Shown here one piece after another: positions 22,354-52,411 of a stretch of DNA of 64,000 bases. This stretch comes from a virus. Location: positions 34,831-98,830 of IMG/VR virus record IMGVR_UViG_3300021401_000003. One strand, 5' to 3'. Both the position numbers and the translations under genes were made by a program. The notes beneath the pieces are model-generated. The model had not been told where the DNA came from. It saw nothing but the letters and a program-made list of their open reading frames with translations, and made no database searches. Position 1 is the stretch's first letter, and every line of letters starts with the position of its first letter.

Positions 22354-22382
22354 AGGTGTATTTCCTTTTAGGAATAAGGCGT

Positions 22383-22739
22383 ATGGTTTCACCTGAGAAC
22401 AACATTATCTATCTGCAAACATCCAAGGAGATAACCTCCTTGTTCAAAAGCTTCTTGGAAGACCTCGAAAACCAGAAGAAAGACCACGACTTGATGATGG
22501 CCAAGGTCGCTGAGAAATGCGGCCAAGACTACGCCAACTCCATCAACTTCTTCTCGGACGAGAAATACAACCACATACGCAAGAGAGTCCTAGACCACGG
22601 AAACGAAACCTCCCGCCAACTATCCGCGTTCCTAGACTACTTCGATTTCCAGATTAACACCCAAAAGCTTGATGAAGCCGTCAAGAACAAGGTGACCCAC
22701 AAAAAAATCATCATTGCCGGACAGATTGGCGTAGAATAA
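22383..22739 (+). CDS. Tail assembly protein (chaperone-like), first of three
   Basis: 118 residues from the ATG at 22383, chosen because AGGAATAAGG lies just upstream. An ATG 27 bases earlier would sit in the tail of the terminator. The protein is highly helical and charged (YLQTSKEITSLFKSFLEDLE, then a long Lys/Asp-rich helix). It lies between tail tube and tape measure, where tailed phages encode tail assembly chaperones that coat the tape measure. The frames do not allow a simple frameshift fusion with the next gene. Function is inferred from position. Confidence 0.5.
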   Translation: MVSPENNIIYLQTSKEITSLFKSFLEDLENQKKDHDLMMAKVAEKCGQDYANSINFFSDEKYNHIRKRVLDHGNETSRQLSAFLDYFDFQINTQKLDEAVKNKVTHKKIIIAGQIGVE

Positions 22740-22755: not shown

Positions 22756-23523
22756 ATGAGCAAGAAATTTATCTACGAATTTACCGTTGACAAGATTGTC
22801 GAAAAAGACGTTCCCGTCGAACGCAAGCCGGAAGACGACCCTAGCGTTACCGCAACGCGCAAGGAGAAAGTCGCGGAGCCTGTCAAATTCCGCATCCTCA
22901 AGCCGACCCGCAAACTTTACGACTTGGCCGAAATCTTCTTGGCCAAAACAATTTCCGATTACGTCCGTGAAGGCATTATGCCCATCACTTTGGTCGCCAA
23001 ACGATTCGGTGATGACGGCGGCGTCCTTACTACCAAGGAGCAGGAATACATCGTTGAACTGCAAAAACGCATTGACGAAAATCAGAAGAAACTGATTGCC
23101 CTTTCCGCACCGAAGAAGGAAGGAGAACCGGAACCCGAAACCATTTCCCCGCAGCAACGCGCCGACCTGTTCGTGGATATGATGAAGACTCAGGTGGAGA
23201 TTGACAACATCCGAAATTCCTACCTGTCTCTTTACGAAAATACAGCCGAAATGAAGGCTCGTAAGAAGACGATTGAATGGTGGATTACGCAATTAAGCTA
23301 CCACGGCGAGGGTGAGAAGGAATATTTCCCGCAGACCTCCTTCTTCGAGCGTTACAAGGCATACGTTGATACCTTGGACGGAGACAGTGATTTCGATAAG
23401 AAAGTCGTGTCGAAGTTTTCCTACCTGATAAGCACTTGGTTCTCCAACATCAACACCGCGCTTACCGAAGAAGACTTCAAAGCCGCCGACAAGCACTTTG
23501 AAGAAAATGTAGCCGATGAGTGA
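22756..23523 (+). CDS. Tail assembly protein (chaperone-like), second of three
   Basis: 255 residues, mainly helical. The N-terminal 55 residues are beta/charged (KFIYEFTVDKIVEKDVPVER). The middle holds a long helix pair (EQEYIVELQKRIDENQKKL, then RADLFVDMMKTQVEIDNIR) and a C-terminal helical part. Ribosome binding site TAAGG upstream. The stop at 23521-23523 overlaps the GTG start of the next gene by 4 bases. A TGA lies directly before that GTG in its frame, so the two are not joined by frameshifting. Probably a tape measure chaperone. Confidence 0.5.
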   Translation: MSKKFIYEFTVDKIVEKDVPVERKPEDDPSVTATRKEKVAEPVKFRILKPTRKLYDLAEIFLAKTISDYVREGIMPITLVAKRFGDDGGVLTTKEQEYIVELQKRIDENQKKLIALSAPKKEGEPEPETISPQQRADLFVDMMKTQVEIDNIRNSYLSLYENTAEMKARKKTIEWWITQLSYHGEGEKEYFPQTSFFERYKAYVDTLDGDSDFDKKVVSKFSYLISTWFSNINTALTEEDFKAADKHFEENVADE

Positions 23524-24407
23524 AACCATTTTCCCCATTAACCGAGATAGAGAATCTCAAGCTGATATATCACGATATTCTCAATGGTTATTCGCTTGAC
23601 GACAGCGGTGTTTATGTCAAGCACTTCTCCGAACAGTCCTACGCCCGAGTCCTAGAAAGAAAGAGGACGCTCGCCCTGTCCTTTAGGGTCGAAGGGCTTC
23701 CGACCAATGACGAGCGCGAGAAGGAAATGCTCGAACAGGGTCTATGGACTCAGGATAAGGAGGACAGGATTGAGCAGTTGAAGGTGAACATCGCCGACAA
23801 CGAGAAATATTCCCAAGGCATCATCCCCTCCCAAAAGGGCGCGATTACAGCCATACTGGACAACCTCAAAACAGAACTCGCTTCCTTGGTAAATGACAAG
23901 CATGATATTGTCGGCCCCACATGCGAGAAATTCGCAGACCGTGAAGTTGAGAACTTTTTCCTGTTAGAACTGTTTTACAGGGACAGCGGACTGGCTCATA
24001 AATATTTCTCCGAGGACGAGTTTGCGGACTTGGACTATCAAGAGCTTGCCAAGTATAAGAAAATCCTCAATGCCGCCCTGACTAAGATAGGCGAGGAACA
24101 TATCAGGCAGCTAAGTTGCCTGCCATTCTTTCTTAACTCCCTTCAAGTTGTAAAAGAACGCCCGGAAAAATTCTTCGGCAAGCCGATTTCCGAGTTGACA
24201 TTCCACCAGCATAACTTGCTCATGGGAGGACTCAGAAGCCACAACATCCACTCCCAAGCCGAAGGCTCGCCGCCTAGTTTGGCCGATTCCACGATTCAAG
24301 GGCTGGTGGAGTGGTATGACAAGCAGCACTCCATTATCCTCGGCAAGAACAGCAAGGGAGTCGCCACCAGCGGCCTTAGCATCACCAATACTGACGTGGT
24401 GCGATAA
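23520..24407 (+). CDS. Tail assembly protein (chaperone-like), third of three, GTG start
   Basis: 295 residues starting with GTG at 23520, overlapping the upstream gene by 4 bases. The ATG at 23516 is in another frame and is closed within about 30 codons, so GTG is the only sensible start. Largely helical and charged, with LIYHDILNGYSL, a coiled segment around residues 65-125 (GLWTQDKEDRIEQLKVNIA) and a C-terminal part with HNLLMGGLRSHNI. The last gene before the tape measure. Three separate genes here, rather than the usual frameshifted pair, is noteworthy. Confidence 0.5.
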   Translation: MKPFSPLTEIENLKLIYHDILNGYSLDDSGVYVKHFSEQSYARVLERKRTLALSFRVEGLPTNDEREKEMLEQGLWTQDKEDRIEQLKVNIADNEKYSQGIIPSQKGAITAILDNLKTELASLVNDKHDIVGPTCEKFADREVENFFLLELFYRDSGLAHKYFSEDEFADLDYQELAKYKKILNAALTKIGEEHIRQLSCLPFFLNSLQVVKERPEKFFGKPISELTFHQHNLLMGGLRSHNIHSQAEGSPPSLADSTIQGLVEWYDKQHSIILGKNSKGVATSGLSITNTDVVR

Positions 24408-24449: not shown

Positions 24450-27400
24450 ATGGCAGCACCCGAGATTCTATTGGCGGTAGGTGGGGATTTAACAGCGTTG
24501 AACAACGCTATTGATTCCGCATTGAGTCGTCCAAGGAACTTCAGGGGCATCAACGCCAATTCCTTTACCGAACCTCTCGGTAGAATCACTGGAAAAGCCT
24601 CCGAATTCTCCAAGTCTATGGAGGCGTCCAACGCCCGTGTTTTGGCGTTCGGTGCTTCTGCCGGTGCGATTTACGCCGTTCACAAGTCCTTCGAGACTCT
24701 CCTGTCCTCGACGATTGAAGTCCAGAAGTCAATGAACCTTTTGGGCACGTTGTTCAACGCGAGCAACGCCACGCTCAAGAACTTCTCCAATAGCCTGTTC
24801 GACGTGGCCAATCTGACCGGGCAGAGTTTCAGGTCTGCCACGGAAGCCGCCAACACGTTCGCCCGTCAGGGCTTGAGCGCGGCGGAAACGCTTCGCAGAA
24901 CCAGAGACGCCCTGATTCTTGCTCGTATCGCCGGTATGGACTTCGGAGATTCGGCGAGGGTCATTACCACGGCCATTAACTCGTTCAACAAGGAAGCCCT
25001 AACAAGCACCGAAATCATCAACGCCTTGAGCGCGGCGGAAACTCACTTCTCCGTCAACTCGTCCGACTTGGCTCAAGCCATTTCCCGTGTAGGAACGTCT
25101 GCTGAAAACGCGAACGTCACCCTGAACGAAACCATTTCCTTAATTACTAGCGCGGCCCAAATCACTGGCCGTTCCGGTTCGGTAATCGGTAACTCGTTCA
25201 AATCCATCTTCACCCGTCTCGAACGCCCGAAGGTTTTGGAAGACTTACAGCAAATCGGTGTTACAACCAGAGACGCATCTGGTAATGTTCTTCCGTTGGT
25301 TCAGGTTCTCAAGAACTTGGCATCTACCTACGACTTGCTGACCCCAAGCCAGAAGTCATTCATCACGGAAGCTGTTGGTGGTGTCTATCAAATTAACACG
25401 TTGAAAGCCGTCCTTGGTGACTTGGGAAGCGGCTTTAGTGTCTATGACCGCGTTCTCAAGACGGTTGAAGGTTCGACTTCATCCGTCATTGACCGTAACA
25501 ACCAACTCAACGAAACAATTTCCGCGAAGCTCAATGCCACCCTCAACAACCTAATCCAAGCCGGTTCCAAGGTTGGAAACTTGGTTATTGCACCTTCGCT
25601 CGGCAAGGGAGCCGATTTGGGCGCGAACTGGATGAAGGGTATTTCGGAAGCCATTGATTCAAAGTCCTTGGGCGGAGATTTGGCGCGTGGGCTGCTCAAG
25701 GGTCGAGACGTTATCAGCGGGCCGGGAGTCCAGTTTATTACGTTTGCCATGCTCAAGTTGTTCCAGAACCTTGCGACGTTCGCGGCCAAGTCTGTTGGAG
25801 AATTCACCGGGGTTTCCACAAAGGCGAAGGAACTTGAACTTACTCAGGTTCAGGTCTTGCAGCAGTTGCTCCAACAGCCAAAGGTCTTGGAGTCCATCAA
25901 GACTGGGACGATGACGGTTGACCAAGCCGCCAAGCAAGTTTTCAGAGATATTCAGGCGCAGAATTCCGCCTTGGAAGCCCAGTTGGGACTTGCGCGTTTG
26001 ATTGCCAAAACGGGCATGACTGGCGGCGTGTCTGTTCAGGGAACCAAGTATAGGGCCGCTTCGGGTTATGTTCCGAGTTTCTTTGACGAGTTCGCTATGG
26101 AAGAAGCCCACGCCAAGTCCTTGGGTGCGGCGGCTCCTAGAGCGCACTTCGGCAAGGGAACCATTGGTGGCCGCAAATTTATTATGAACTCTCAGGAGAC
26201 TGAGATTCCTAATTTTGGCTCCAACGGAGACTCGGCGGTTATACCGAACTACTCGAAGGGCTTTGTTCCTAATCTCGCTGTTGGCCGCGAAGACATCTTG
26301 ACATCCAGAGATAAGCTTAGAAAGCACACCGGCAGAGTCGCCAGCTTGTTTGTCGCTGAAAAGGGTGCGAGGGAATACGGCGAATTCTACAACGTATTCC
26401 GCTACTCCGATAAGGAAAAGGTCAACTTCCTGCCGGAAATCGAAAAGTTCGTATCAGAAAGAACGGACAAGGCACCAATTCCTACCGGGGGAAGGGGAGC
26501 TATGTCTGCTTTGGCGGGCGTCATCTTTGAAGCTCTAATCAGAAAAAAGGCCCAAATCGGAAACGTCGAAGACGCTAACTTCGACATTCCAAGTGTTAGG
26601 GCTGTCAAGAAAAACCTGACTCCATTTTTCGGAGATTCCGTTGATGGCGGGTTGCTGGATGCCGGTGACTTCAAAATTTCCGACTCGGTTCGCGCCAGAA
26701 AGAGCCTAGAAAAGAAAATCATCAACAGACTCGATTCCATGCCTAACATGAAGGCGGAAGGTCACTACCCTGATTCCGCTTACGGGCCATACGGAAAGAC
26801 AATCACCAACGCTTCTTCCCAAGGTCTTCCGGGTATGCTCGAAGGCGCGGAATTCATCGGCAGCGGAGTCCAAGGGGTTGTATATAAATACACTCTGCCA
26901 AGCGGCAAACAGAAGATTGTCAAAATTCCTAGAAAGCAGGAAGATGTTGGCCGTCTGCATGACGATGTAAGAAAGCAGAGGGCGTTCTATGGCTCCTCCC
27001 CTGACCTTGGAGGATATGTTAATCCGAACAAGCCATCCCTTTACCTAAACTACGGAGACTACAAAGAAGGCAGAGGAGCCGGTATTTCCGAATTGGAAAT
27101 GCTGACAGGTGAAAAAAGGGTCAACGGCCTGCACAATCAGCAGGAGAGCAGCCTACATCAGTCGTTCATGGGACGCCTAAAGGGTAATCCTAACGCGGAA
27201 GCCATCGCAAGTAGGGCTACCCGCATGACTCTATCAGATGTGAAGCGTAACTTCTCCAAGTATAACAAGGTTTACAGCAAACAGGGCAGGGGATTTTACT
27301 ATGGCCGTAATGGGGCGGTAGGAAACTATACCCTCAATAATCTTCATCCAGCCATCACTCCAAGCGGATTGATTTTCAAGGACTATGTTGAATCCAACGG

Positions 27401-30400
27401 CCAGAATTTAATTAAGGGACACTTGCTTGATGGGGTCGCCAAGGCGTATTCAAACGTAGGTGGATACCCGGACATGATTCGCGGTATCAGGGAGAGTTAC
27501 GTCAACCCGAACAATGGTCAAGTTTCCGTTTACGACTTTGCTGACGGATATATTCCAAGGTCTGACCTTTACAGTCTGCCTTGGAGACAGCGTGTGCGCG
27601 GCCATGACCGCCCGGTTCCTCCTACTGAAACCGCCGACAGATTCAGGGAGTATGAAACATATCTCTTGCAGGCCGGTTTGCCGAAACTGGGCTTTGAAGG
27701 AGTCCACGACCTAAACTCGGTTTTGGGAACAAATTCCAGAGCGGACTTCTTTGCCCGCCGAAGCGGAGTCCCTCACATCGTTGACGCCAAGGGTGGCTAC
27801 AATGACGCCCAGCCTAGCGACATTGCTGCCAAGGAAGAAAGCTTCGCCATGCTCAAGCAGAATCCGAAGTTCTTGTCATTTCTCCGCAGCCAAGGCATCG
27901 TAAACCCGGACGAAGTTCGTGAAGCCATCGTGTTCGGAAACATGGGACACGGGCAGCGCAAGAAGCTGGCGGAAACTGGCAAGTTGATGATGGCCAATGG
28001 CTTCATGCCGAATCTTGCGGGTCTTTCATTCCAGCAATCCTTCGATAAGGAGTTCGGCATCACTAAACTCACCGGGACAATGGGTGGGAAAACAGTCGGT
28101 GACATTGAATACAGCGGCAACGATGAAAAGGAAATCGAAGGCTTTGAAATCAACAAGGCATTTCGTGGAAAGGGACTGGCCAAGAAGTTCTACAAGGCTT
28201 TGGGCAGAGGTCGCGTATCGGGAACCCTTCTTCCTCAATTCGGCAATAATGGAAATGCGTTCTTCCCTCAGTTGTCCCGCGCTAGAATGGCAAAGTCTGC
28301 AACGGTGCAGGGGTTTGACGGCTCGGAAATGACTGTTGCCCAATTCGAGAAGCTTGTCCAGATGAACTCTGGTAATCAGGGCTTCTGGAATGATAACTCT
28401 TTTAACTTAATCTCTCACCACGCTCAGGGGTTCGTCCCGAACTTGGTTGACCCCGGATATATTTCCTCCACCTTGGAAAGAATCAAGAATGGAACCAGTG
28501 GTTTCTCTGACGCGGAGAAGGCGATGTTCCTAAAGAAGTTCGCTGGAAAAACCGGAGCCTTGGGTTCTCCGTTTGGTGTGGATATTTTGGGAATTGATGA
28601 TTTGCCGCCGATGGTTCCTTTCTGGATTCAGAACGCAGCACGTAAGAAGTATGGGAAGGATGCCTATGTCAGTGTCCAGCCGCATTTGGCTGAAAAACTT
28701 CGTGCCGCCATAAAGCAAGACCCAAGCATTGTTCATAATTTCAGTGCATTGGAGGGGTTGTTCAGCGGCGGCATCGCGGCGACCTCGTTCGCGCAAGGAT
28801 TCGTTCCGAACTTCTCCAACCCGCTCACTTCCGCCATCAATAGGGAAAGAGCGGCTGGATACAGTTCTTCCCAAATCCGCGTTGGGCATGATTCCGCATT
28901 GGTTAGCGCGATGAACCCGGATGGAGTTGGTGTTTATAACTCTACAGAAGGCTCTCTCTCGAACGGTATTGGCCTTGCTCGTCGCGCCGGTATTGACCCT
29001 AAGACAAAGGGCATGGCCAAGGGTAACATCCCTAACTTCGCCGATGTTGGAACTTCGATGGCTTTGGGAGGAATGCAGTTCTTGTTGGCTATTCCTCTTA
29101 TCAGCGGTGCATTGCAGAAAATGACTTCTCCGTCGAAGCAGGCTGCGGAAGCTATGGAGAAGCTTGAGGGAAGAATCACGAAGCTTACAAAGGTAAGTGC
29201 CCAATACGACAGTCGCTTGGAAAAGACCAATCAGTCTTACGAAATCACGATGAAGGCTATTGATGGTCTTTATCAGAAAGCGGCTAAGACGGGATACCTG
29301 AGTGGGGCCGAAGTATCCGCGCTAACAATGCTCGAAGGTAAGGCGGCGAAGGAAGAAGGGGCCATGAAGTTGTATGCCTCTGGAAAATCCAGAGCGGAAT
29401 TGCAAAAGACCACTTCCCTAAGCGAGTTAATCTCAGAGCAGAAGAAAACTACGTTCGGACAAAAACTCTTTGGTGGAGAAAATTACGAAAAGACCTTCGC
29501 TGGCAAAGCCCAAGGATTCGGCTTGGTAGCGGGCATGGGTGCGGGAATAGGGATGAATGTCGCTGGTGAAATGATTGGCGGCGACAAGGGTAAGGCTCTT
29601 GGCGAATTTGGTTCAACCATTCAGACGGCAGGGCAAGTTATGGCTACAATCCCCGGCCCAGCAGGGCTTGTAGCGGGTGCCCTTGTGGTGATGAAAGGAG
29701 CGATTGATTTCGCTGATAAGGCCGCATGGGGATTCGCAGAGAAGATTAAGGACGCCGCGCAGGAGAAATTGACCGGCATTGATAACATGGATGCTGCGTC
29801 AAACGGACTTGCCCAAGCGATGTCGAATTACCAAACTTTACTTGACGACTCCCACGCCACGAATACCGCATTATTGAAGGCTCAAGAGAAATACAAGACA
29901 GCCTTGAATAATTTCGTCGCAAGCGGATTTTCCAAAGACGACATTACGAAGGTCACCGGTGCTGGAACAATGTCCGAACGACAAGCCGCGCTCCAAGAGC
30001 TTAACGAAAAAAATGCCAGAGAGAAGGAGAAGCAGACGACGATTTCCCAATCTGCGGATTTGGCAGAATCCATTGCAATCAATACTAAGAAGGATAACGT
30101 ATTCAATCAATCTCTTTTTTCTTGGGGAGGAATGGGGAATTTTATATCGGGAAGGAAGGATATAGACGGCATTGAATCTTTGTGGAGCGGCAAAGCCGGG
30201 AAAAGTATCTTTGATGAGAAGTTCTCCAAAGAAGGTGGTGGCAATAACCTCCTCACGAAGATGACTCAAGAGGCTATGGATAGCGGGGATTCCAAAGGAT
30301 ATATCGCGGATATGAAGGAGAAGGGCGTCCTTGATGACCAATCCGCTGGAATTCTATCCAGAAACATACAAGCAACCAAAAAATATGTCACCGCTGCCGA

Positions 30401-31922
30401 AGAAATGGGCAAAATTATAGACCAGAACGTCGGGCAGCAGAGGGCGCAGCAACAGTCAATGGAACGCTACGCCCAAGGTCTAAAGCAACTCCAAAACGAA
30501 TTGAGGACATTCGCGGGTGACGCGTTCTTCAAGCAGATGGACAATATTTCCGAGAGAATGAAAAGCGGAGCGAACGCTCGTCACGGTGATGCGGAAATTG
30601 CCGGGGCTTTGGCTTTAAGCTTGACAAAGGGCGGTGGGGTAAACAGAAACGGCATCATTATGAACTCGGACGAGAAGGCTCTGACCGAGATTGATAACAC
30701 GATGGCTAAAATTGGGGCCGACATGGATGTCGCGCTATCTGGCGTCAACGCCAATTTCACCAAGGGTTTGACGGACTTGGTTAAGGGGGAATTCGCGGGG
30801 GCCAAGGGTGGGGCTAATGGAAACAATCAAGCTACATTCACAAACGAGCAATACAACACTTCCGCTCAAATCATCAATCAGATTACCCAAGACCTTTTCA
30901 AGAATGGAAAGCTTAACGGCAGCGCGGAACAGACTCGCGGAACAATCGCCAACGCCATAGATGCAAGAGGCAGGGTGCTTCAAGGTGCTGACCCCGGCAT
31001 CAGCGCGTTGTTGAGACAGTCCGCGAACTCATTGGTTGGTTCCAAGGGGCAAGAGCTAATCCAACAGCAGTTGCTCGAAACACAGAAGGTATCCACCGAA
31101 TATTTGGAGCAGACTGCCAAGGCTACAATCGAGTCCAAGGACAAGTTGCAGCAGATGATTAACCAGAGAATCCTTGCTGCGGGCGGGGGTGTAAGCTCGT
31201 TCACTCAGGATTTCGGAGCTTCCTATAGGAGAAGCCTCAGACAAGACATCAGCGAGTCTCGCTCTGGTGTCCCAGAAATGGCCGGTGTCGGCGCAATCAA
31301 CTTCCTCAAGAAAGCCAAAAACGACTTGGGTATTGGCGAAGGGGACGCTTTGTTCACGGACATGAAGGCCAAGGCTATTACCGGAGTCGAATCCGAACTC
31401 AAGAAAACCTATGGGGTTTACGCAAGACAGGGCTATAATACTCCGTCGGATGCAGGCATCCATGATATTGCCAGCAGACAAGTAGAGAACGAAGTCGGCG
31501 GGGCGTCGGTGAACGAACTGATGCAAAAGGGCAACGACTTGCAGGATAAGGCGAATGGCTACTTGGTTCAGATTTTGGAAAGAAACGGCATGGCTAGTGA
31601 CCAAACCAGTCGCATAAAGCTTCAAAATGACTTGTTCACCGGCAAGGGTATCACGTCGTTCCAGAACCAGTCGAACGTGGCGATAGACTCTCAGGTTACG
31701 AGGTCTATTGATTACGCATCCATGCAAATGATGATGGTGGCTGGCAAGATTGAAAAGGCGTCGGAAAATCTCAAGTCTCTCAAGGGAGAAATTGACATTA
31801 CGATTACGCAAATTAAAGAAAACGACCCAGCGGGCAAGCGCACGACAAGACAGAGCGCGATTCTCGAATCGGTAAAATCCGCTCAGACTAAGGCACCGTC
31901 TGACGTATATCAGAACATGTAA
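24450..31922 (+). CDS. Tape measure protein with embedded enzyme-like domains
   Basis: 2490 residues. The first 400 residues match the TP901-type tape measure region, including FGASAGAIYAVHKSFE, LTGQSFRSATEAANTFAR and GNSFKSIFTRLERP. The rod continues with helices to about 530. Residues 537-1531 differ: motifs of the form GFVPNLA, IPNF and GFMPNLA occur at 540-544, 586-589, 598-610, 1183-1190, 1325-1332, 1448-1455 and 1522-1531. They bound a PD-(D/E)XK-like part (681-760), a kinase-like part (GSGVQG 804-809, Lys825), a second nuclease-like part (Asp1099, Asp1112, Lys1114) and a GNAT-like part (RGKGLA 1239-1244). From about 1535 it is again a helical rod with hydrophobic glycine-rich stretches near 1690-1755, suited to membrane insertion. 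It sets tail length and enters the host envelope; the central region may be delivered cargo. Confidence 0.9.
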   Translation: MAAPEILLAVGGDLTALNNAIDSALSRPRNFRGINANSFTEPLGRITGKASEFSKSMEASNARVLAFGASAGAIYAVHKSFETLLSSTIEVQKSMNLLGTLFNASNATLKNFSNSLFDVANLTGQSFRSATEAANTFARQGLSAAETLRRTRDALILARIAGMDFGDSARVITTAINSFNKEALTSTEIINALSAAETHFSVNSSDLAQAISRVGTSAENANVTLNETISLITSAAQITGRSGSVIGNSFKSIFTRLERPKVLEDLQQIGVTTRDASGNVLPLVQVLKNLASTYDLLTPSQKSFITEAVGGVYQINTLKAVLGDLGSGFSVYDRVLKTVEGSTSSVIDRNNQLNETISAKLNATLNNLIQAGSKVGNLVIAPSLGKGADLGANWMKGISEAIDSKSLGGDLARGLLKGRDVISGPGVQFITFAMLKLFQNLATFAAKSVGEFTGVSTKAKELELTQVQVLQQLLQQPKVLESIKTGTMTVDQAAKQVFRDIQAQNSALEAQLGLARLIAKTGMTGGVSVQGTKYRAASGYVPSFFDEFAMEEAHAKSLGAAAPRAHFGKGTIGGRKFIMNSQETEIPNFGSNGDSAVIPNYSKGFVPNLAVGREDILTSRDKLRKHTGRVASLFVAEKGAREYGEFYNVFRYSDKEKVNFLPEIEKFVSERTDKAPIPTGGRGAMSALAGVIFEALIRKKAQIGNVEDANFDIPSVRAVKKNLTPFFGDSVDGGLLDAGDFKISDSVRARKSLEKKIINRLDSMPNMKAEGHYPDSAYGPYGKTITNASSQGLPGMLEGAEFIGSGVQGVVYKYTLPSGKQKIVKIPRKQEDVGRLHDDVRKQRAFYGSSPDLGGYVNPNKPSLYLNYGDYKEGRGAGISELEMLTGEKRVNGLHNQQESSLHQSFMGRLKGNPNAEAIASRATRMTLSDVKRNFSKYNKVYSKQGRGFYYGRNGAVGNYTLNNLHPAITPSGLIFKDYVESNGQNLIKGHLLDGVAKAYSNVGGYPDMIRGIRESYVNPNNGQVSVYDFADGYIPRSDLYSLPWRQRVRGHDRPVPPTETADRFREYETYLLQAGLPKLGFEGVHDLNSVLGTNSRADFFARRSGVPHIVDAKGGYNDAQPSDIAAKEESFAMLKQNPKFLSFLRSQGIVNPDEVREAIVFGNMGHGQRKKLAETGKLMMANGFMPNLAGLSFQQSFDKEFGITKLTGTMGGKTVGDIEYSGNDEKEIEGFEINKAFRGKGLAKKFYKALGRGRVSGTLLPQFGNNGNAFFPQLSRARMAKSATVQGFDGSEMTVAQFEKLVQMNSGNQGFWNDNSFNLISHHAQGFVPNLVDPGYISSTLERIKNGTSGFSDAEKAMFLKKFAGKTGALGSPFGVDILGIDDLPPMVPFWIQNAARKKYGKDAYVSVQPHLAEKLRAAIKQDPSIVHNFSALEGLFSGGIAATSFAQGFVPNFSNPLTSAINRERAAGYSSSQIRVGHDSALVSAMNPDGVGVYNSTEGSLSNGIGLARRAGIDPKTKGMAKGNIPNFADVGTSMALGGMQFLLAIPLISGALQKMTSPSKQAAEAMEKLEGRITKLTKVSAQYDSRLEKTNQSYEITMKAIDGLYQKAAKTGYLSGAEVSALTMLEGKAAKEEGAMKLYASGKSRAELQKTTSLSELISEQKKTTFGQKLFGGENYEKTFAGKAQGFGLVAGMGAGIGMNVAGEMIGGDKGKALGEFGSTIQTAGQVMATIPGPAGLVAGALVVMKGAIDFADKAAWGFAEKIKDAAQEKLTGIDNMDAASNGLAQAMSNYQTLLDDSHATNTALLKAQEKYKTALNNFVASGFSKDDITKVTGAGTMSERQAALQELNEKNAREKEKQTTISQSADLAESIAINTKKDNVFNQSLFSWGGMGNFISGRKDIDGIESLWSGKAGKSIFDEKFSKEGGGNNLLTKMTQEAMDSGDSKGYIADMKEKGVLDDQSAGILSRNIQATKKYVTAAEEMGKIIDQNVGQQRAQQQSMERYAQGLKQLQNELRTFAGDAFFKQMDNISERMKSGANARHGDAEIAGALALSLTKGGGVNRNGIIMNSDEKALTEIDNTMAKIGADMDVALSGVNANFTKGLTDLVKGEFAGAKGGANGNNQATFTNEQYNTSAQIINQITQDLFKNGKLNGSAEQTRGTIANAIDARGRVLQGADPGISALLRQSANSLVGSKGQELIQQQLLETQKVSTEYLEQTAKATIESKDKLQQMINQRILAAGGGVSSFTQDFGASYRRSLRQDISESRSGVPEMAGVGAINFLKKAKNDLGIGEGDALFTDMKAKAITGVESELKKTYGVYARQGYNTPSDAGIHDIASRQVENEVGGASVNELMQKGNDLQDKANGYLVQILERNGMASDQTSRIKLQNDLFTGKGITSFQNQSNVAIDSQVTRSIDYASMQMMMVAGKIEKASENLKSLKGEIDITITQIKENDPAGKRTTRQSAILESVKSAQTKAPSDVYQNM
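26490..26760 (+). other. PD-(D/E)XK-like segment 1 inside the tape measure
   Basis: Residues 681-770. The helix GRGAMSALAGVIFEALIRKK is followed by DIPSVRAV, an Asp-rich turn and DAGDFKIS with Asp740-Phe-Lys742. The order helix-then-acid-x-K matches restriction-endonuclease folds. Weak but suggestive; no statistics available. Confidence 0.4.
26835..27540 (+). other. Kinase-like segment inside the tape measure
   Basis: Residues 796-1030. FIGSGVQGVVYKY (802-814) has the glycine-rich loop spacing G-x-G-x-x-G-x-V of protein kinases, followed 12 residues later by KIVKIP with Lys825 in the position of the ATP-binding lysine. Later signatures are less clear: an HLLDG strand and VYDFADG could be the catalytic and metal-binding loops. 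Confidence 0.45.
27620..27960 (+). other. PD-(D/E)XK-like segment 2 inside the tape measure
   Basis: Residues 1058-1170. NSRADFFARRSGVPHIVDAK places Asp1099, Asp1112 and Lys1114 as D-x(12)-D-x-K, followed by a GG turn and the helix DIAAKEESFAML. This is the core pattern of PD-(D/E)XK nucleases, clearer than in segment 1. Confidence 0.5.
28020..28400 (+). other. GNAT acetyltransferase-like segment inside the tape measure
   Basis: Residues 1191-1317. Strands GITKLTGTMGGKTVGDIEYS lead to EGFEINKAFRGKGLAKKFYK, where RGKGLA (1239-1244) matches the acetyl-CoA-binding motif A (R/Q-x-x-G-x-G/A) at the start of a helix. Flanked on both sides by PNLA-type motifs. Confidence 0.5.
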
Positions 31923-43826: not shown

Positions 43827-45017
43827 TTACGGTATGTTTCGGGTTTTGTCAAGCATTTCCACAAACATGCAGTTTTCGGCTTCATCGTTCCAGAAGTCCG
43901 GGGAGTCAATGACGGGCTGGAAACCCTCAGTTTTGACGACTCCTGCGATTTGGGAGGCTCGGGAGGCATAAACCTTGCCCTCGCTGTGGACGTTGCGGCA
44001 GGATTTAAAATGCAAATTATTGATTTTTTTTAGCTTTTCCAGCAACTCGGGCTTGATTTTAGGAATCACGTTGATGTTGGCGTGTTCGTAATAGTCAATC
44101 TTTTTGCGCTCGATTTGCTCGGATGGCAAATTACACAGAAGGGCACAGCGAATCCCAAGTTCGGCCACTTCCCTGACGAAAGCGGGTTCGTCGTTTTCGC
44201 GGATAAAGTAGAACATGCCCTCAATCGCGGCCTTGTTTGCGGCGAGGATTTGGAGATTGATTCTCCTGTCTGTGAAGATGCGGCAGCGATTCACGCGTAG
44301 CTGACGGGCAAGGATTTCTTCGTCGAACAGATAATCCATGCGGACATCCAAAACCGCCTTCTTGTCATGGACATTGACCACTTGATTAGGCATGAAGTCG
44401 TTGATTTGAATACGGCCATAACCATCCCCAATGTGGATTGTGCGGAACGCAGGCGCGTAAGCGATGCCGAGAAGCTTCAAAATGGCTTCGACTATTTCTT
44501 CTGGAAAAATAGTGTTGATGGTCTTTGGGTTTTCGTCGGAGGCATACGAAGGCTTTTGACCAAGACGTTCATAGCATTTGAATACGATGTGCTGGCTCTT
44601 GTCGCCGAAATAAGGGCCAGCGTTCTCTGGCTGGATGATGTTGTAGAGGGCAACGATGGGGATGTTGAACGCGGAGGCAAGGTGAATGGCGAAACTATCG
44701 CATCCAAAATGGAGCGCGGAACGTTTCACGATATAAGCCAACTGGTTGACTGTGGTTCTTCCGCGATAGTCAATCGCCCCCGCGATTGCTGGGTCGTTAG
44801 GGCCACCCGTTTGGACAATCTTGATGTTCTCCTTCGCAAGAATGGGCAGGAGAAGGCCGATTACGTCCTGCCAGTAATCGTAGTTCTTGGAGTTGAACTT
44901 GGTGTTCGTGTGGAAAGAAATGTATTTTCCTTCCGGCAACGGAGTGAAAGACTCGTAGATAAACGGCTCGTCAATCTTGGCTCCGCAAGCTAGGGCGTAT
45001 GTTTCAATCAGGTGCAT
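43827..45017 (-). CDS. GT9-type glycosyltransferase, C-terminal half plus extra domain
   Basis: 396 residues. It starts abruptly in the middle of a GT9 (heptosyltransferase-like) fold: MHLIETYALACGA is the interdomain helix, followed by the C-terminal nucleotide-sugar-binding Rossmann half with YISFHTNTKFNSKNY, IVQTGGPNDP and the acceptor-side loop CDSFAIHLASAFNIPIVALY. The matching N-terminal half of this fold is found at the C terminus of the upstream gene. The ATG overlaps that gene's stop as TAATG, in the -1 frame. Residues 210-396 are a further unrecognised alpha/beta domain (FTDRRINLQILAANKAAIEG). It probably transfers a sugar, acceptor unknown. The split is discussed in the findings. 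Confidence 0.65.
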   Translation of the reverse strand: MHLIETYALACGAKIDEPFIYESFTPLPEGKYISFHTNTKFNSKNYDYWQDVIGLLLPILAKENIKIVQTGGPNDPAIAGAIDYRGRTTVNQLAYIVKRSALHFGCDSFAIHLASAFNIPIVALYNIIQPENAGPYFGDKSQHIVFKCYERLGQKPSYASDENPKTINTIFPEEIVEAILKLLGIAYAPAFRTIHIGDGYGRIQINDFMPNQVVNVHDKKAVLDVRMDYLFDEEILARQLRVNRCRIFTDRRINLQILAANKAAIEGMFYFIRENDEPAFVREVAELGIRCALLCNLPSEQIERKKIDYYEHANINVIPKIKPELLEKLKKINNLHFKSCRNVHSEGKVYASRASQIAGVVKTEGFQPVIDSPDFWNDEAENCMFVEMLDKTRNIP

Positions 45018-46933
45018 TAGTGGTAGCTTTCTAAATCAAAATCAAGCTTATCTTCCCCGTTGTGCTGATAAGTGAAAATTCTCTGCGTGGGGACGTGCGG
45101 AAGATAGGCGATATTGAAATATCCCTTGTTAGTTCCATTGCCTTCCAGCCATAAGAGATTGTCCATGATTGGATTGTATTCAAGCCAGTGGTCAACGTGC
45201 GGGTTTCCATCCAGCACCGACCTGTATTCCGGCTTCGTGGCAACGTAAAGGGCATAATCCGGGTAACGGCGTTTGATGGACGGGAAGACGCTCGACAGTA
45301 GGAACAAGTCCCCCGCGCTTTCGGGCATGACCACAAGGATTCTGCCCTTGTCGTTTTTATTCAAGAGTTCATTGAAGTCCGTCTTATTTTTCTCCTGTAG
45401 TTCCTTGGCGGCGGTTTGACGGAAGAATTGCTCGATGACTTCGCGCTTCTGGCCCTTGCTCAATTCCCCAATCCAATACTTGACGCCATCGTCCTCCTTG
45501 TCAATGTCTTGACGATTCAGGATTTCCTTATACAGACTGATGACCCATTCCGTGTTGTCTTCGATTGGCTGGATGGAAACGAATGGATTTGGCAGCGACT
45601 CCTTTTCAAGATTGGAGAAGTCCGCTGGCGGGCAGTTGTCAATAAATTCCTCGAAAATGCCGCCTACGGTCTGCGTGGAGAAATTTTTGATAGTCCATTC
45701 CCTCGCCTGCTTGCCCATCGCGGTTTTCTTGGAGGCGTCCATCTTCAATACCTTGCCCAGTTGTTTGGCGATGGAGGCGGGATAAGTAGAAGCCTTGATG
45801 AATTCAGTTTGATGCTCGCGGTATTCCGCCCAGTCTAGGGGGATGGAACCTGCGTCCGGTTCGCACATTTCTTCACCACACGAATAGTTCGTGACGAGAG
45901 TAATCAGTTCGGTAAGCTTTGCTTCCTGAATGGGGATTTCCTGACCGCCCGAAGTGAACGGGTGACAGTAAACATCCATCAGGTTGTAAATCTCGTTCAG
46001 GTATTTTTCGGAAACCCCAAGACCCGGCCCGGTTGTGATTTGGGACTTTTCCGTTTTACAATGCTTGCAGTTCTGGTCGTGACCCGTGAAAGGCTTGACT
46101 TCGTATTTCAGGCACGACTTGCAGACGTAGGTGGTAAGAATCTCGTTCTTGTTGACCCCGTATTCGGCGGCAAGCTTATGAATGTCCCAACCCTCAGACC
46201 AGTTGGTATGCAGGAGCAAGCGCGGATTCTTGACTTCGGGATGCTCCTTCGTGAACATCTTATATCCTTCAAGAAGGTTAGGGACGCTCTTTCTTAGCTG
46301 ATTACGGAACACGAAACCAACGATGAAGGCATCAAGGGGGATGCCGTTTTTCTTTCGCAGTTCCGTTCTTTGCAGATTCGGAAGCTTGCAGAAATGCGAC
46401 GTATCAACCGCACCGTGAACTGTCCTGACGTGAGTATGACCCAGCTTGTGCAGGGCGTTGGTGGCGAAGCTGCTCCAAATCCAGAAATTCTTGATTTTTG
46501 GGGCAATTTTAATGTCGCTTGGTCGCAGAGGAAGTGAGTCAAGAGTAGTCCAAATGACCGAATTGGTCTTCTTGAACCATTTCTTTTCGACAGCGAAATC
46601 AACGCCCCAAATATCTTGCGAGGCAACGTAAACGTCCGGCTTTTCTTCAAGGATTACCTTGTCGAGATTCCATGCCCCGTATCCGGCCTGACGAGCGATG
46701 TGAGGGTCTTTATTTAACTCCTGAATCTGTCTTGGGTCGTTGGGGAGACAGCCCACGCTTTTCCAAGGGGTGCGGGCGAGTTCTGGATGCCCCACTGGGA
46801 CTCCGATACAATAATGAACCAAGTCATACTTGCCCGTGCGGAACAGGTATTCAAGTATGGCTCGGATATTGCGTCCGAACCCGGTTTTAGCTAGGCTAAA
46901 ATCGGTTTGGAAAACGATTTTCTTTTTCTTCAT
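45017..46933 (-). CDS. GT4-type glycosyltransferase, zinc-ribbon insert, DUF4214 and GT9 N-half
   Basis: 638 residues with several domains in order. Residues 1-450 are a GT4/GT1-like transferase: FQTDFSLAKTGFGRNIRAIL at the start, the second Rossmann half opening at FIVGFVFRNQLRKSVPNLLE, and the E-x7-E-like loop SGGQEIPIQEAKLTELITLV. Between them is a zinc-ribbon-type insert with CKSC and CKHC. Residues 460-515 match DUF4214 (WVISLYKEILNRQ, GVKYWIGELSKGQ). Residues 531-638 are the N-terminal Rossmann half of a GT9 transferase (RILVVMPESAGDLFLLSSVF, PSIKRRYPDYALYVAT). Its start overlaps the stop of the upstream gene, TAATG. It likely modifies phage or host glycans. Confidence 0.75.
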   Translation of the reverse strand: MKKKKIVFQTDFSLAKTGFGRNIRAILEYLFRTGKYDLVHYCIGVPVGHPELARTPWKSVGCLPNDPRQIQELNKDPHIARQAGYGAWNLDKVILEEKPDVYVASQDIWGVDFAVEKKWFKKTNSVIWTTLDSLPLRPSDIKIAPKIKNFWIWSSFATNALHKLGHTHVRTVHGAVDTSHFCKLPNLQRTELRKKNGIPLDAFIVGFVFRNQLRKSVPNLLEGYKMFTKEHPEVKNPRLLLHTNWSEGWDIHKLAAEYGVNKNEILTTYVCKSCLKYEVKPFTGHDQNCKHCKTEKSQITTGPGLGVSEKYLNEIYNLMDVYCHPFTSGGQEIPIQEAKLTELITLVTNYSCGEEMCEPDAGSIPLDWAEYREHQTEFIKASTYPASIAKQLGKVLKMDASKKTAMGKQAREWTIKNFSTQTVGGIFEEFIDNCPPADFSNLEKESLPNPFVSIQPIEDNTEWVISLYKEILNRQDIDKEDDGVKYWIGELSKGQKREVIEQFFRQTAAKELQEKNKTDFNELLNKNDKGRILVVMPESAGDLFLLSSVFPSIKRRYPDYALYVATKPEYRSVLDGNPHVDHWLEYNPIMDNLLWLEGNGTNKGYFNIAYLPHVPTQRIFTYQHNGEDKLDFDLESYH

Positions 46934-47526: not shown

Positions 47527-50500
47527 ATGCAGTTTGTGTTCACAGGTTTCAGGAGCGGGGACGTGCTGGATTATGCCCCGGCAAGCGGAGGCGAAAACTC
47601 CGGGGTTTTCCGTGGCCTGACCCGAGCAAAGACCGCCCCGACTGGCATAAGCTACGGCCTCGTTTTCACGACTTCCCCTCCCGACAGTTCGATTGACATT
47701 TTCGATTCCAACTTCACAGGCCCGTATTATCTCTATGGATGGGCGGGCGCGGGAAGGACTTTTTCGGGCGAATACGTTACCCCGTCCTGTTCCATTTACG
47801 AAACCTGCCACGGTATCAGGCAACCCGACAAGCCGTTCAAGAACTTCTACAACGCCTACTATCGTCATGGATTCTTTGAATCTCCGTGGGGAGCAAATCC
47901 GACCCGAACATCGGTATTGTCGAACTTTGGAACGTCCAGAACGCTTACCCAATCCGATGCCGGGGATGCGATAAATTTCGCAGACGCATTCCAAATCACC
48001 GTAGAAGAATACCATCAGTTGAACGGAATCGTTCCTATTAACTGTGGTGGTGGAAAGTCCCCCGAAAACTGCAATCCACTTATCTCCCCCTTGCAGCACT
48101 TTCGCTACTTCTATTACGAATGCCCGAGTGACATTGACGCGAATTGTCCGACCTATCAGGAAGCGGAAATCAAATGGGTTCCGGGCAACGGAATTGAATA
48201 TGCGGGGCCGAGTGGTTATCCTTCCTATATCTTCGGGGGAAGCCTATACAACAATTCTCCCATCCCTACCGTATTGGACTTGGATGGAAACTTCTTCATG
48301 CAGGATGTGTGCGCCGTGGGAGGCAACATCAACATCTACAATAACAATCTCTGCCCTGCTCTGGTATTGGAAACGGACACGTCCATACTTAGAGGCAGCA
48401 ACGACCTAATGGCTACCTTCGTGGCCAACGCCATCGCTGGTTTTGGATTCGCCGGACTGGGTGGGAATGGCAAGGGCGGAAACGTTGATGGATATGGAGC
48501 GGGAGCGCAAGACCTTGGCAATGAAGACTGGTGGTTCTGGAACTTCGTGTATCAAGAAAACGCGGACACATTTCCGTTTGATAACAGCCCCGACGAAGGA
48601 AGGGTAATCGGCAAGCCTGTCACCAGTAACATAGTCAATTCAGACGGCTCTGTTACCGTGGTGACTACTCAGAGAACGGACGGAAATAACCCAACCCCTC
48701 AGACCTTTGACTCGTCTATCGCTTGGGAAAGCTGGTATTGGCAGCACCGTCTTTGCGCGGACTATCCGAAATACCTGCCTTGGACTTTCGGGGCCAACAT
48801 CTTTGCCTCGCCTGAAACCTACTTTGAAGTTCCGTATTACTCTGCCATTGGTAAATATGGATTCTATGGAGTGAGGTTCCTTGAGTCTGCCGGGACGTTA
48901 ATCAACCCGGATGGAACAGTGAACAGTGGATGCACGACGGGAGACAACGCGAATCCCTTTGATAACGCGACTGTGGGACTCGGCGGGCCTGAAATTTATA
49001 ACAGGCTGCTGAAGACTTCCGCCCTACAGAGGAAATACAGCGATTACTACGCCGGAAATCAAGGATTGTTCTTGGCCCTGAACTACGACTTCCTTACCGG
49101 GGACGCGGGATACAACAGGCTACAGAACTTCACAAAGAGCGGAATCAAAGTCCTGCATGACAAGTTTTGGATTGAATGCAAATACTCCCAGATGGGTGAG
49201 CCTTACTTGTTGACGGCTTGGATTAACGACATCCCAACGCTCTACAATGACAACGGCTATCTTGAAATCAACCCTAATGGCTCTGTCACAGACCCAATCA
49301 ATAACGTCACCCATACTGGGTATTACAGGTCTGGTGTTCCTGACAGTTATCTATATACCAACAATCTGTTCGAGAGTGTGTTCTTTAATCAGGGGGACTT
49401 GCCTGCCTTCGACGCCGGTTTCATTGGTAAGTATGGCAACTACATCGTTCGTGACACGCAGGGGAGTCTCAACACCGGAAGCTACAACTTCATGGCGAAT
49501 GTCCAGAGGAATCTTTCCCATAAGAGAAACTTGGGTAACGAATCCTACGGAACGCCGGTTGACCTGTATCCAATGGGCAGGATTTATTACGGAATGGACG
49601 ACCCTTCGGGATATTACAATGCGTTCTGGCTGGTCGCCCCGAACAGCAAGAGTAAGCCCCCGCAAATCCCAAGAAGATATTTCGAGGGGTATTACGCGTC
49701 GAACTCGGGAGTATTCCCTAATCTATCCGCACTCCAAACCTACACTCCGGTTGGGGAGCCATTGGGATTCAACGCCGGGTTCTACAACAAAATTGGCAAT
49801 GGGAAAATGCACCCGAAACGCGGTTATGTTCCAGTGGCCTCTGGCAACGGACTTACGAATAACAATACACATGTGCATTTGGATTATACAGGCGTTCTGC
49901 AAGTTTTGGGCTACCACCAAATCGGGGTTTTAGACCCGAGCTTCTCATGCTTTAACCCAATCTTTGTTCAACAGCCAAACGACATTATCTGCAAGGTTGG
50001 GCAAACGCCTACGTTCAGGTCGCTCGCGGTTGATTACCACACCTTGCCGGAAGACAAAGTTCAGGATGGGCGATGGCCGGAAATCAATTATTGGGCTGAC
50101 AGACTCAAGCTGACCGATGATAATGGAAAGATTATATCCAAGCTTTCCTATAAGTGGGGAAGGTTCCCTACTGGGCTATACGCTAATTACAACTTGGGGA
50201 ATCTGAGCGGAGTGGAATGGTCTAATCCCACGGGCGAATGGTGTAACCTAGAAGGCGACGGAAGCAATAACTGCACAGTCATCCACCCAAATGAATGCGT
50301 CCCGAAACTAACGGGATACAGAACTTCAATCACTCCGGGGCTTCCTAACCAATTCGCTGAGTTTGTAAAGGGTGCCAAGGTGGGTATTGACGACCAATAT
50401 TACTACTTCTGCGTAGTCTCGGGCATCTTCGGGGAAAGAAGAAGCGAGCCTGCCCGATTGATTATTGATGATACTTTGATTTTGGACGTAGCAGTAAAGA

Positions 50501-52386: not shown

Positions 52387-52396
52387 ACGAAAAATC

Positions 52397-52402
52397 TATA
52401 AT
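52397..52402 (+). promoter_or_regulatory. Possible -10 TATAAT before 52412
   Basis: TATAAT lies in the 25-base gap between the two giant genes, followed by AGAGGGA as ribosome binding site 3 bases before the ATG. No -35 box. The gene may simply be cotranscribed with its upstream neighbour. Confidence 0.3.
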
Positions 52403-52411
52403 AGAGGGAAA

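Follow-up and report, generated by a model that had tools for sequence, protein, structure and literature searches.

Introduction

Phages are described as sending proteins into the host along with their DNA. DarA, DarB, DdrB and Hdf of phage P1 and Alt of phage T4 are virion proteins that are injected with the DNA and protect it or modify the host. The polyvalent proteins described by Iyer et al. (2017; PMC5512222) combine many unlike enzyme domains in one chain, kinases, GNATs, ARTs, and nucleotidyltransferases among them; they are predicted to be injected with the DNA and are possibly diversified by recombination. An exchangeable functional module on a tape-measure-like carrier is described for Sle1, an effector of a contractile injection system (PMC13277306), and polymorphic toxins similarly join a conserved carrier to recombining functional cassettes. 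Within phage tape measures, an enzyme domain is annotated in YomI of SPbeta, which lacks cysteine, and in its relatives. Here we analyze the tape measure encoded in a viral DNA stretch of 64,000 nucleotides (the window), consisting of bases 34831-98830 of the 98,830-base IMG/VR record IMGVR_UViG_3300021401_000003, and compare it with related loci.

The reading that we favor, with a probability of roughly 60%, is that this tape measure doubles as a carrier of enzyme-like cargo which is delivered into the host with the DNA. The middle of the protein is a modular block whose cassettes are exchanged at short linkers; one cassette has a predicted GNAT fold, others conserve residues of catalytic type, and the block is nearly devoid of cysteine.

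Results

A block of linker-bounded cassettes interrupts the tape measure

The open reading frame (ORF) at positions 24450-31922 of the window (plus strand, as are all of its parts given below) encodes 2490 amino acids. It belongs to the tape-measure family according to a PhageMin_Tail match at residues 123-307 (Pfam, E 4.6e-31) and to matches with tape-measure families of PHROG, and a second IMG/VR contig of 202,882 bases bears the identical ORF. The original prediction, made from the letters of the window alone, had placed a non-rod block in the middle of this protein, and this block is real (residues ~539-1530). Aromatic residues (F, W, and Y) account for 5.4% in both rod parts versus 9.6-11.9% in four of five block sub-regions (3.7% in the fifth, residues 1460-1540), proline plus glycine for 10-12% in the rod versus 16-19% in the block, and the block contains repeated linkers. 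Among 29 complete relatives, the block exceeds its flanks in both measures in every case (29/29). Its length ranges from 230 to about 2300 residues, the longest values including linker-like copies late in the protein, and correlates with C-terminal length with a coefficient of 0.3.

The segments of the block had been thought to be bounded by PN[F/L]; a repeated motif is indeed present, but it is longer, with the consensus A[AS]xG[FY][VI]PNF[AS]. This consensus derives from 410 copies of a first locus set. A linker scan of viral contigs gave 106 stretches, and a second scan with a variant at least 120. The six core positions are partly fixed by the search pattern, whereas the flanking positions are free of it: A occupies position -3 in 40%, A or S position -2 in 90%, and A or S the position after the core in 80% of the copies. 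The window was counted in this profile and left out of the homologue counts over 241 loci and all later ones, and four loci of the same phage (L001, L132, L244, and L263) were excluded from family counts. With the own phage omitted, 190 of the 241 loci have an ORF of at least 300 residues with two or more linker-like copies.

In the DNA of the window, a pattern that encodes A..GFVPN[F/L]A occurs four times if at most two mismatches are allowed, always within the block, versus 0.02 occurrences expected from shuffles. The strict core G[FY][VI]PN[FY] was found 684 times in 359,973 residues of tape-measure ORFs, one copy per locus being due to selection since the loci of both scans were chosen for holding a linker, versus 38 times in 383,896 residues of the other ORFs of the same loci and 0.1 times in shuffled ORFs. 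The first linker lies within residues 531-650 in 92 of the 94 relatives that are left-complete. Codons are shared between linker copies of one gene at 48.8% versus 44.7% expected; the idea that linkers are DNA repeats was therefore rejected, and this slight excess indicates that selection acts on the linker peptide. Most likely the linker is a hinge or a docking peptide, a cleavage site being possible.

The N-terminal tape-measure core (residues 1-538, positions 24450-26063), which contains the PhageMin_Tail match, aligns with the N-termini of all 94 left-complete relatives (33-54% identity). It is followed by linker 1 (GYVPSF, residues 539-544, 26064-26081), the head cassette (residues 545-603, 26082-26258), and linker 2 (GFVPNL, residues 604-609, 26259-26276). 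At the other end of the block, a GFVPNF linker (residues 1450-1455, 28797-28814) precedes the end cassette (residues 1456-1524, 28815-29021), and the last linker (GNIPNF, residues 1525-1530, 29022-29039) leads to the C-terminal rod (residues 1531-2490, 29040-31922), which is poor in aromatic residues, free of cysteine, and without detected homologue among the 241 loci. Head and end cassettes are conserved, with homologues in 21 and 138 of the 241 loci, respectively. Two further PN[F/Y] at residues 587 and 599 lie inside the head cassette and do not form the full linker motif.

Cassettes resembling intracellular enzymes

Cassette 4 (residues 1190-1326, 28017-28427), lying between linkers GFMPNL (residues 1184-1189, 27999-28016) and GFVPNL (residues 1327-1332, 28428-28445), is identified as a GNAT acetyltransferase by its predicted fold and by profile. 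Its best AlphaFold2 model has a pLDDT (predicted local distance difference test score) of 82.2, the other four models reaching 60-71. With this model, all 50 of the Foldseek matches listed are of GNAT type, 43 of them by title; the remaining ones (PA3270, Naa60, NatC, and Ard1) we take to be of GNAT type as well. Probabilities reach 1.00, the best E value is 1.4e-3, template modeling (TM) scores are 0.30-0.45, and VIA gives Z values up to 8.5. A GNAT profile compared with the PDB found four sequences, three of them named acetyltransferases (best 7.5e-4). The acetyl-CoA-binding loop of GNATs has the motif R/QxxGxG/A, and RGKGLA is present in cassette 4. Taken alone, the cassette stays below the Pfam cut-off for GNAT, while that of relative L016 exceeds it (22.3 vs. 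20.7 bits). A search with the GNAT alignment that was blind to linkers returned five loci, at least two of which were already in hand (L248 and L249 are the contigs of L016 and L134); in all five the match lies in a tape-measure ORF with 6-10 linkers and no cysteine.

Cassette 1 (residues 610-770, 26277-26759) contains a domain with residues E694, D712, and D740-x-K742. E694, D712, and K742 do not vary in any of the 50 aligned rows, and position 740 is always D or E, although rows gathered with a profile favor such columns. This E-D-(D/E)xK domain is found in 125 of the 190 relatives, mostly after the first or second linker. The residues E, D, and (D/E)xK form the pattern of PD-(D/E)XK nucleases. 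The model of cassette 1 (pLDDT 71.5, core blocks 83-91) matched no known fold in the PDB or BFVD (best Foldseek E 0.42 and 0.15, respectively; best VIA Z 3.2), and a PD-(D/E)XK fold was accordingly not assigned, though absence of this family from lists of fold or profile matches does not exclude it. A profile search of the PDB with the domain gave eight sequences, mostly of lectin type, which look like chance matches. The residues fit without a fold match, and we therefore call cassette 1 nuclease-like by its residues only; as judged from sequence, the domain is probably nuclease-like.

Three further cassettes complete the block. A decayed linker (GHYPDS, residues 771-776, 26760-26777), which sits in the linker columns of the cassette alignment, precedes cassette 2 (residues 777-1032, 26778-27545), a putative kinase-like domain by motifs recognized by eye, i.e., the glycine-rich loop EFIGSGVQGVVYK and IVKIPR, which would hold the VAIK lysine. 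A possible DFG-like stretch, VYDFADG, overlaps the next decayed linker (GYIPRS, residues 1033-1038, 27546-27563). Cassette 3 (residues 1039-1183, 27564-27998) may be a second nuclease-like domain by the motif RADFFARRSGVPHIVDAKGG, also seen by eye. Cassette 2 had no match in Pfam, neither cassette 2 nor cassette 3 has a homologue beyond the same phage in viral contigs or among the 241 loci, and a 723-residue query found no homologue of them in phage records at E 1. Cassettes with similar-looking kinase-like motifs occur in L005 and L053; the L053 stretch matches many loci, probably via an included end cassette, and these were not counted as kinase relatives. Cassette 5 (residues 1333-1449, 28446-28796) is a domain without assigned function that has homologues in 4 of the 241 loci.

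The original prediction had spoken of a train of enzyme-like domains and had proposed fold prediction and fold search for its pieces. Unlike domains of enzyme type do follow one another, and several unlike activities may be joined in one chain, in the window one by enzyme fold and the others by residues; the head and end cassettes are not enzyme-like. The fold search recovered a known fold for cassette 4 and none for cassette 1.

Pfam scans of the relatives covered 153 non-redundant cassettes (76 + 77) out of the 199 in the first set, and 82 out of 87 representatives that were new. Among the matches were one each for PolyA_pol (9.4e-15), DUF7178 (1.4e-17), HIGH_NTase1_ass (3.4e-8), PcfJ (3e-7), and ART-PolyVal (1.3e-5), besides several GNATs. 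One cassette family matches P-loop NTPases, and L016 has a P-loop cassette in addition to its GNAT cassette. For another cluster (consensus 'mydwdgtI') the label HAD was considered, but no PDB profile matched and it remains a lead only. P-loop and HAD-like cassettes occur in one tape measure in L007, L028, L035, L036, L093, and L145; this pairing, together with the PolyA_pol cassette found elsewhere, hints at an RNA-repair cargo.

Cassettes are exchanged at linkers

Similarity clustering of 557 cassettes of at least 50 residues gave 101 clusters, 56 of them singletons, and several tape measures with N-termini 91-100% identical have differing cassette sets. The blocks were compared in 61 pairs whose N-termini are 80% or more identical: of 58 points at which homology ends within the block, 51 are no more than 15 residues away from a linker, versus 19% of random positions. 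A clear case is the pair L035 and L040, which share three segments (96%, 97%, and 80% identity) split by two single cassettes present only in L035. Whole cassettes are thus gained, lost, or swapped at linkers, and by this exchange the cargo could change while the rod stays undisturbed. Gain and loss in close relatives is compatible with the predicted notion that cargo does not count toward tail length, without proving it.

Cysteine is nearly absent from the block

The tape measure of the window has no cysteine in 2490 residues. In the 190 relatives, there are 5 cysteines in 112,777 block residues and 17 in 247,196 residues of rod parts, versus 805 in 117,865 residues (0.683%) of other same-strand ORFs of at least 250 residues from the same loci; cysteine is absent altogether from 186 of the 190 blocks and from 359 of the 363 cassettes with at least 95 residues. 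For ten named phages, lambda, T5, HK97, and SPbeta among them, the tape measures (that of MaeS presumed, that of AM5 annotated as minor tail protein) contain no cysteine in 19,802 residues, and lack of cysteine may be a general trait of tape measures. The P1 proteins that are packaged in the head and injected do contain cysteine, with 9 in DarB, 1 in DarA, 2 in DdrB, and 1 in Hdf. Selection against cysteine might act where a chain is kept unfolded in the tail or passes through an oxidizing compartment, a fate that the cassettes would share. The near-absence of cysteine points to a cargo that remains in the tape measure, and the composition common to cassettes and tape measure speaks against an early removal of the block; entry into the cytoplasm is not shown by it. 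No cysteine rule for tape measures was found among the matches listed from open-licence PubMed Central full text, which is a weak absence.

Distribution of the cassette plan among relatives

A search independent of the linker, made with the N-terminal core alignment, found at least 587 loci. The best 80 by similarity were kept; without the own phage these are 79, of which 65 are 3'-complete, several contigs being shared with the first set. Two or more linkers are present in 59 of these 65 tape measures (exactly four in 40, fewer than two in 6), and the E-D-(D/E)xK domain in 57. The blocks of this set have 3 cysteines in 34,541 residues. From these linker and domain counts, the commonest plan looks to be a head cassette, one E-D-(D/E)xK cassette, and an end cassette, with longer trains such as that of the window as elaborations.

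Whole-protein searches of phage records gave matches in the N-terminal core only, as seen in the best 30 of 107, 25 of 113, and 25 of 91 records. Microcystis phage MaeS is the top-listed terminase match (24.8%), and three of its large ORFs that were checked contain no linker. Among 24 matches in a genome collection, four are long ORFs of this tape-measure type with 2-4 linkers (L110, L116, L126, and L131), on contigs that are binned with bacterial or uncultured-bacterium genomes and are probably phage contigs; the other 20 had a single linker copy and were dropped. An alignment of fragments against the whole block, which showed mostly low identity to their counterparts, was not used. Large proteins encoded in L025, L037, L044, L064, L081, and L095 are related to each other (1829-1832 residues where complete); they have one linker-like motif, around residue 1627 in complete copies, and do not belong to the ORFs with a match to the N-terminus of the tape measure.

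Neighboring genes

Three small genes immediately upstream of the tape measure (22356-22739, 22756-23523, and 23520-24407) have homologues upstream of tape measures in 33, 65, and 80 loci, respectively. None has a clear PHROG match and two have no meaningful match in Pfam; the suspicion that they process linkers was not supported, no protease motif being recognized. Of six downstream genes in the window, one has a homologue, in one locus. Other downstream families are common to relatives: the largest occurs in 30 loci and has a weak Phage_min_tail match, and four more have no match. Farther away, the window encodes a glycosyltransferase-like protein with a DUF4214 match (45017-46933, minus strand; both slightly below Pfam cut-offs), two adjacent giant ORFs (1619 and 1549 residues; 47527-57061) that match nothing in Pfam at E 0.01, and a bacterial-type DNA polymerase III alpha subunit (57049-59613, minus strand; NTPase domain E 2.2e-54).

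Discussion

How a tape measure might carry cargo

In the model that we propose, a cargo bay would lie between the N-terminal core and the C-terminal rod, opened by the head cassette and closed by the end cassette. The bay would hold one or more independent domains, in most relatives the E-D-(D/E)xK domain and in many phages further enzymes such as GNATs, P-loop NTPases, kinase-like proteins, and others. According to PMC8718954, which calls three copies of the tape measure possible, tape measures are ejected ahead of the DNA and the tail lumen measures about 40 Å. Three folded domains of 15-25 kDa abreast would hardly fit such a lumen, from which we infer that the chain, presumably located in the tail tube of the virion, is thin or unfolded there. 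The cargo would then leave with the tape measure before the DNA, and its domains would be released, fold, and act on host targets early in infection; the original prediction had named host defence or host metabolism as possible targets. Acetyl-CoA and ATP are the cofactors of GNATs and of P-loop NTPases and kinases, respectively, and these needs together with the conserved signatures suggest that cassettes act in the cytoplasm.

Several observations weigh against delivery of enzymes to the host. The proposal draws on sequence and predicted models. Most cassettes have no Pfam match at E 0.01, a library of defence proteins gave two weak matches in 76 cassettes, and the commonest domain has no confirmed nuclease fold and could serve tail assembly or DNA entry. 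The GNAT match is good, though not strong, with no Foldseek E value below 0.001 and the TM-scores given above, and the best VIA rows cover mainly the first 67-70 residues of cassette 4. When only the block of the window or of two relatives served as query, none of 50,697 phage records matched at E 0.01, which leaves no cultured example at hand. Finally, cysteine is also absent from the N4 virion RNA polymerase (1675 residues covered, a part of the protein), the N4 major head protein, N4 gp51, five smaller proteins of the window, and two phi36 neighbours; lack of cysteine is thus not peculiar to proteins of tail lumens.

Alternative explanations

The E-D-(D/E)xK domain and some other cassettes might instead be part of the virion machinery, aiding tail assembly, passage of the envelope, or entry of DNA rather than acting on the host. 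That this domain occurs in 57 of the lineage's 65 complete tape measures, and that it mostly stands behind the first or second linker, would fit such a role, as would the annotation of some isolate tape measures with cell-wall enzymes (under transglycosylase and lysostaphin names). It is harder to reconcile with GNAT, P-loop NTPase, and kinase-like cassettes, which require cytoplasmic cofactors, or with the differing cassette sets in several pairs whose N-termini are 91-100% identical, and we regard it as unlikely, if the most serious competitor. The block would have a different fate if the tape measure were a polyprotein from which cassettes are cut in the producing cell, either while the tail is being assembled or earlier, to act there late in infection and leave a mature tape measure of about 1500 residues. 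Proteolytic processing of tape measures is known, e.g., for lambda gpH, short regular linkers separate the domains here, and a processing protease is possible among the flanking genes, some relatives sharing unnamed downstream families. Block and rod are equally poor in cysteine, though, which is unexpected for domains freed early in a reducing cytoplasm, and this possibility seems to us distinctly improbable.

Two explanations dispense with an enzymatic role. The SNIPE nuclease system associates with tape measures, and a tape-measure mutation let phage escape strengthened SNIPE variants (PMC13190303); cassettes might hence be a variable surface that diversifies to escape host binders of this kind, and the content of the block does turn over fast. 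The variation, however, consists of swaps of whole domains that keep residues of catalytic type rather than of point divergence, so that we give this explanation very little weight. Hardly any remains for a passive spacer that would only alter tail length: the tenfold range of block lengths among the 29 complete relatives could be read in this way, but the block surpasses the rod in aromatic residues, proline, and glycine in all 29, contains conserved signatures, and includes a predicted GNAT fold.

Delivery of enzyme-like cargo by the tape measure is preferred here. A wider proposal, for which we see the odds as evenly balanced, is that in a large uncultured lineage of tailed phages the tape measure is a general delivery vehicle, in which cassettes purged of cysteine, a loss that would let the chain be stored and then pass along the tail unfolded, sit between standard linkers and are exchanged as a fast-evolving arsenal, the phage counterpart of polymorphic toxins, and that freedom from cysteine marks tail-borne cargo generally.

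Comparison with known systems

If the cassettes are delivered as proposed, the measuring rod of the phage tail, hitherto regarded as a ruler and a membrane pore, would in addition be a programmable carrier of enzymes into bacteria. Within one public virus collection the N-terminal core occurs in at least 587 loci, and 59 of the 65 complete ones that were checked have linkers. Other proteins carried by tails could be examined for the near-absence of cysteine, which is a simple signature, and protein delivery is a field for which a standard linker compatible with many domains is of interest. A survey of 2023 saw mosaic signals in tape measures and, as far as described there, confirmed no genuine recent exchange (PMC10684548); pairs such as L035 and L040 are clean recent cases in which tape measures exchanged domains. 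No account of enzyme cassettes set off by linkers in these proteins appears among the matches listed from open-licence PubMed Central full text.

In the main text on polyvalent proteins the word 'tape' is absent (PMC5512222). In contrast to them, the domains found here lie within a tape measure as carrier and are set apart by one linker and by fixed cassettes at both ends; injection of the cassettes with the DNA would follow from the tape-measure context only. The antirestriction proteins of P1 and Alt of T4 differ in being separate proteins packaged in the head, and those of P1 retain cysteine. The enzyme domains of YomI and its relatives are annotated for the cell wall, and linker-delimited enzymes of intracellular type were not found there. 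In Sle1 the module is C-terminal and the machine a bacterial one (PMC13277306), whereas several internal cassettes are found here in a phage: the terminase large-subunit gene and DNA replication genes of the window are at odds with a headless tail-like cluster. Polymorphic toxins are described with a C-terminal toxin domain, in contrast to the internal and serial cassettes of the tape measure. What seems new with respect to injected multidomain effectors is the carrier, the standard linker, and the compositional signature.

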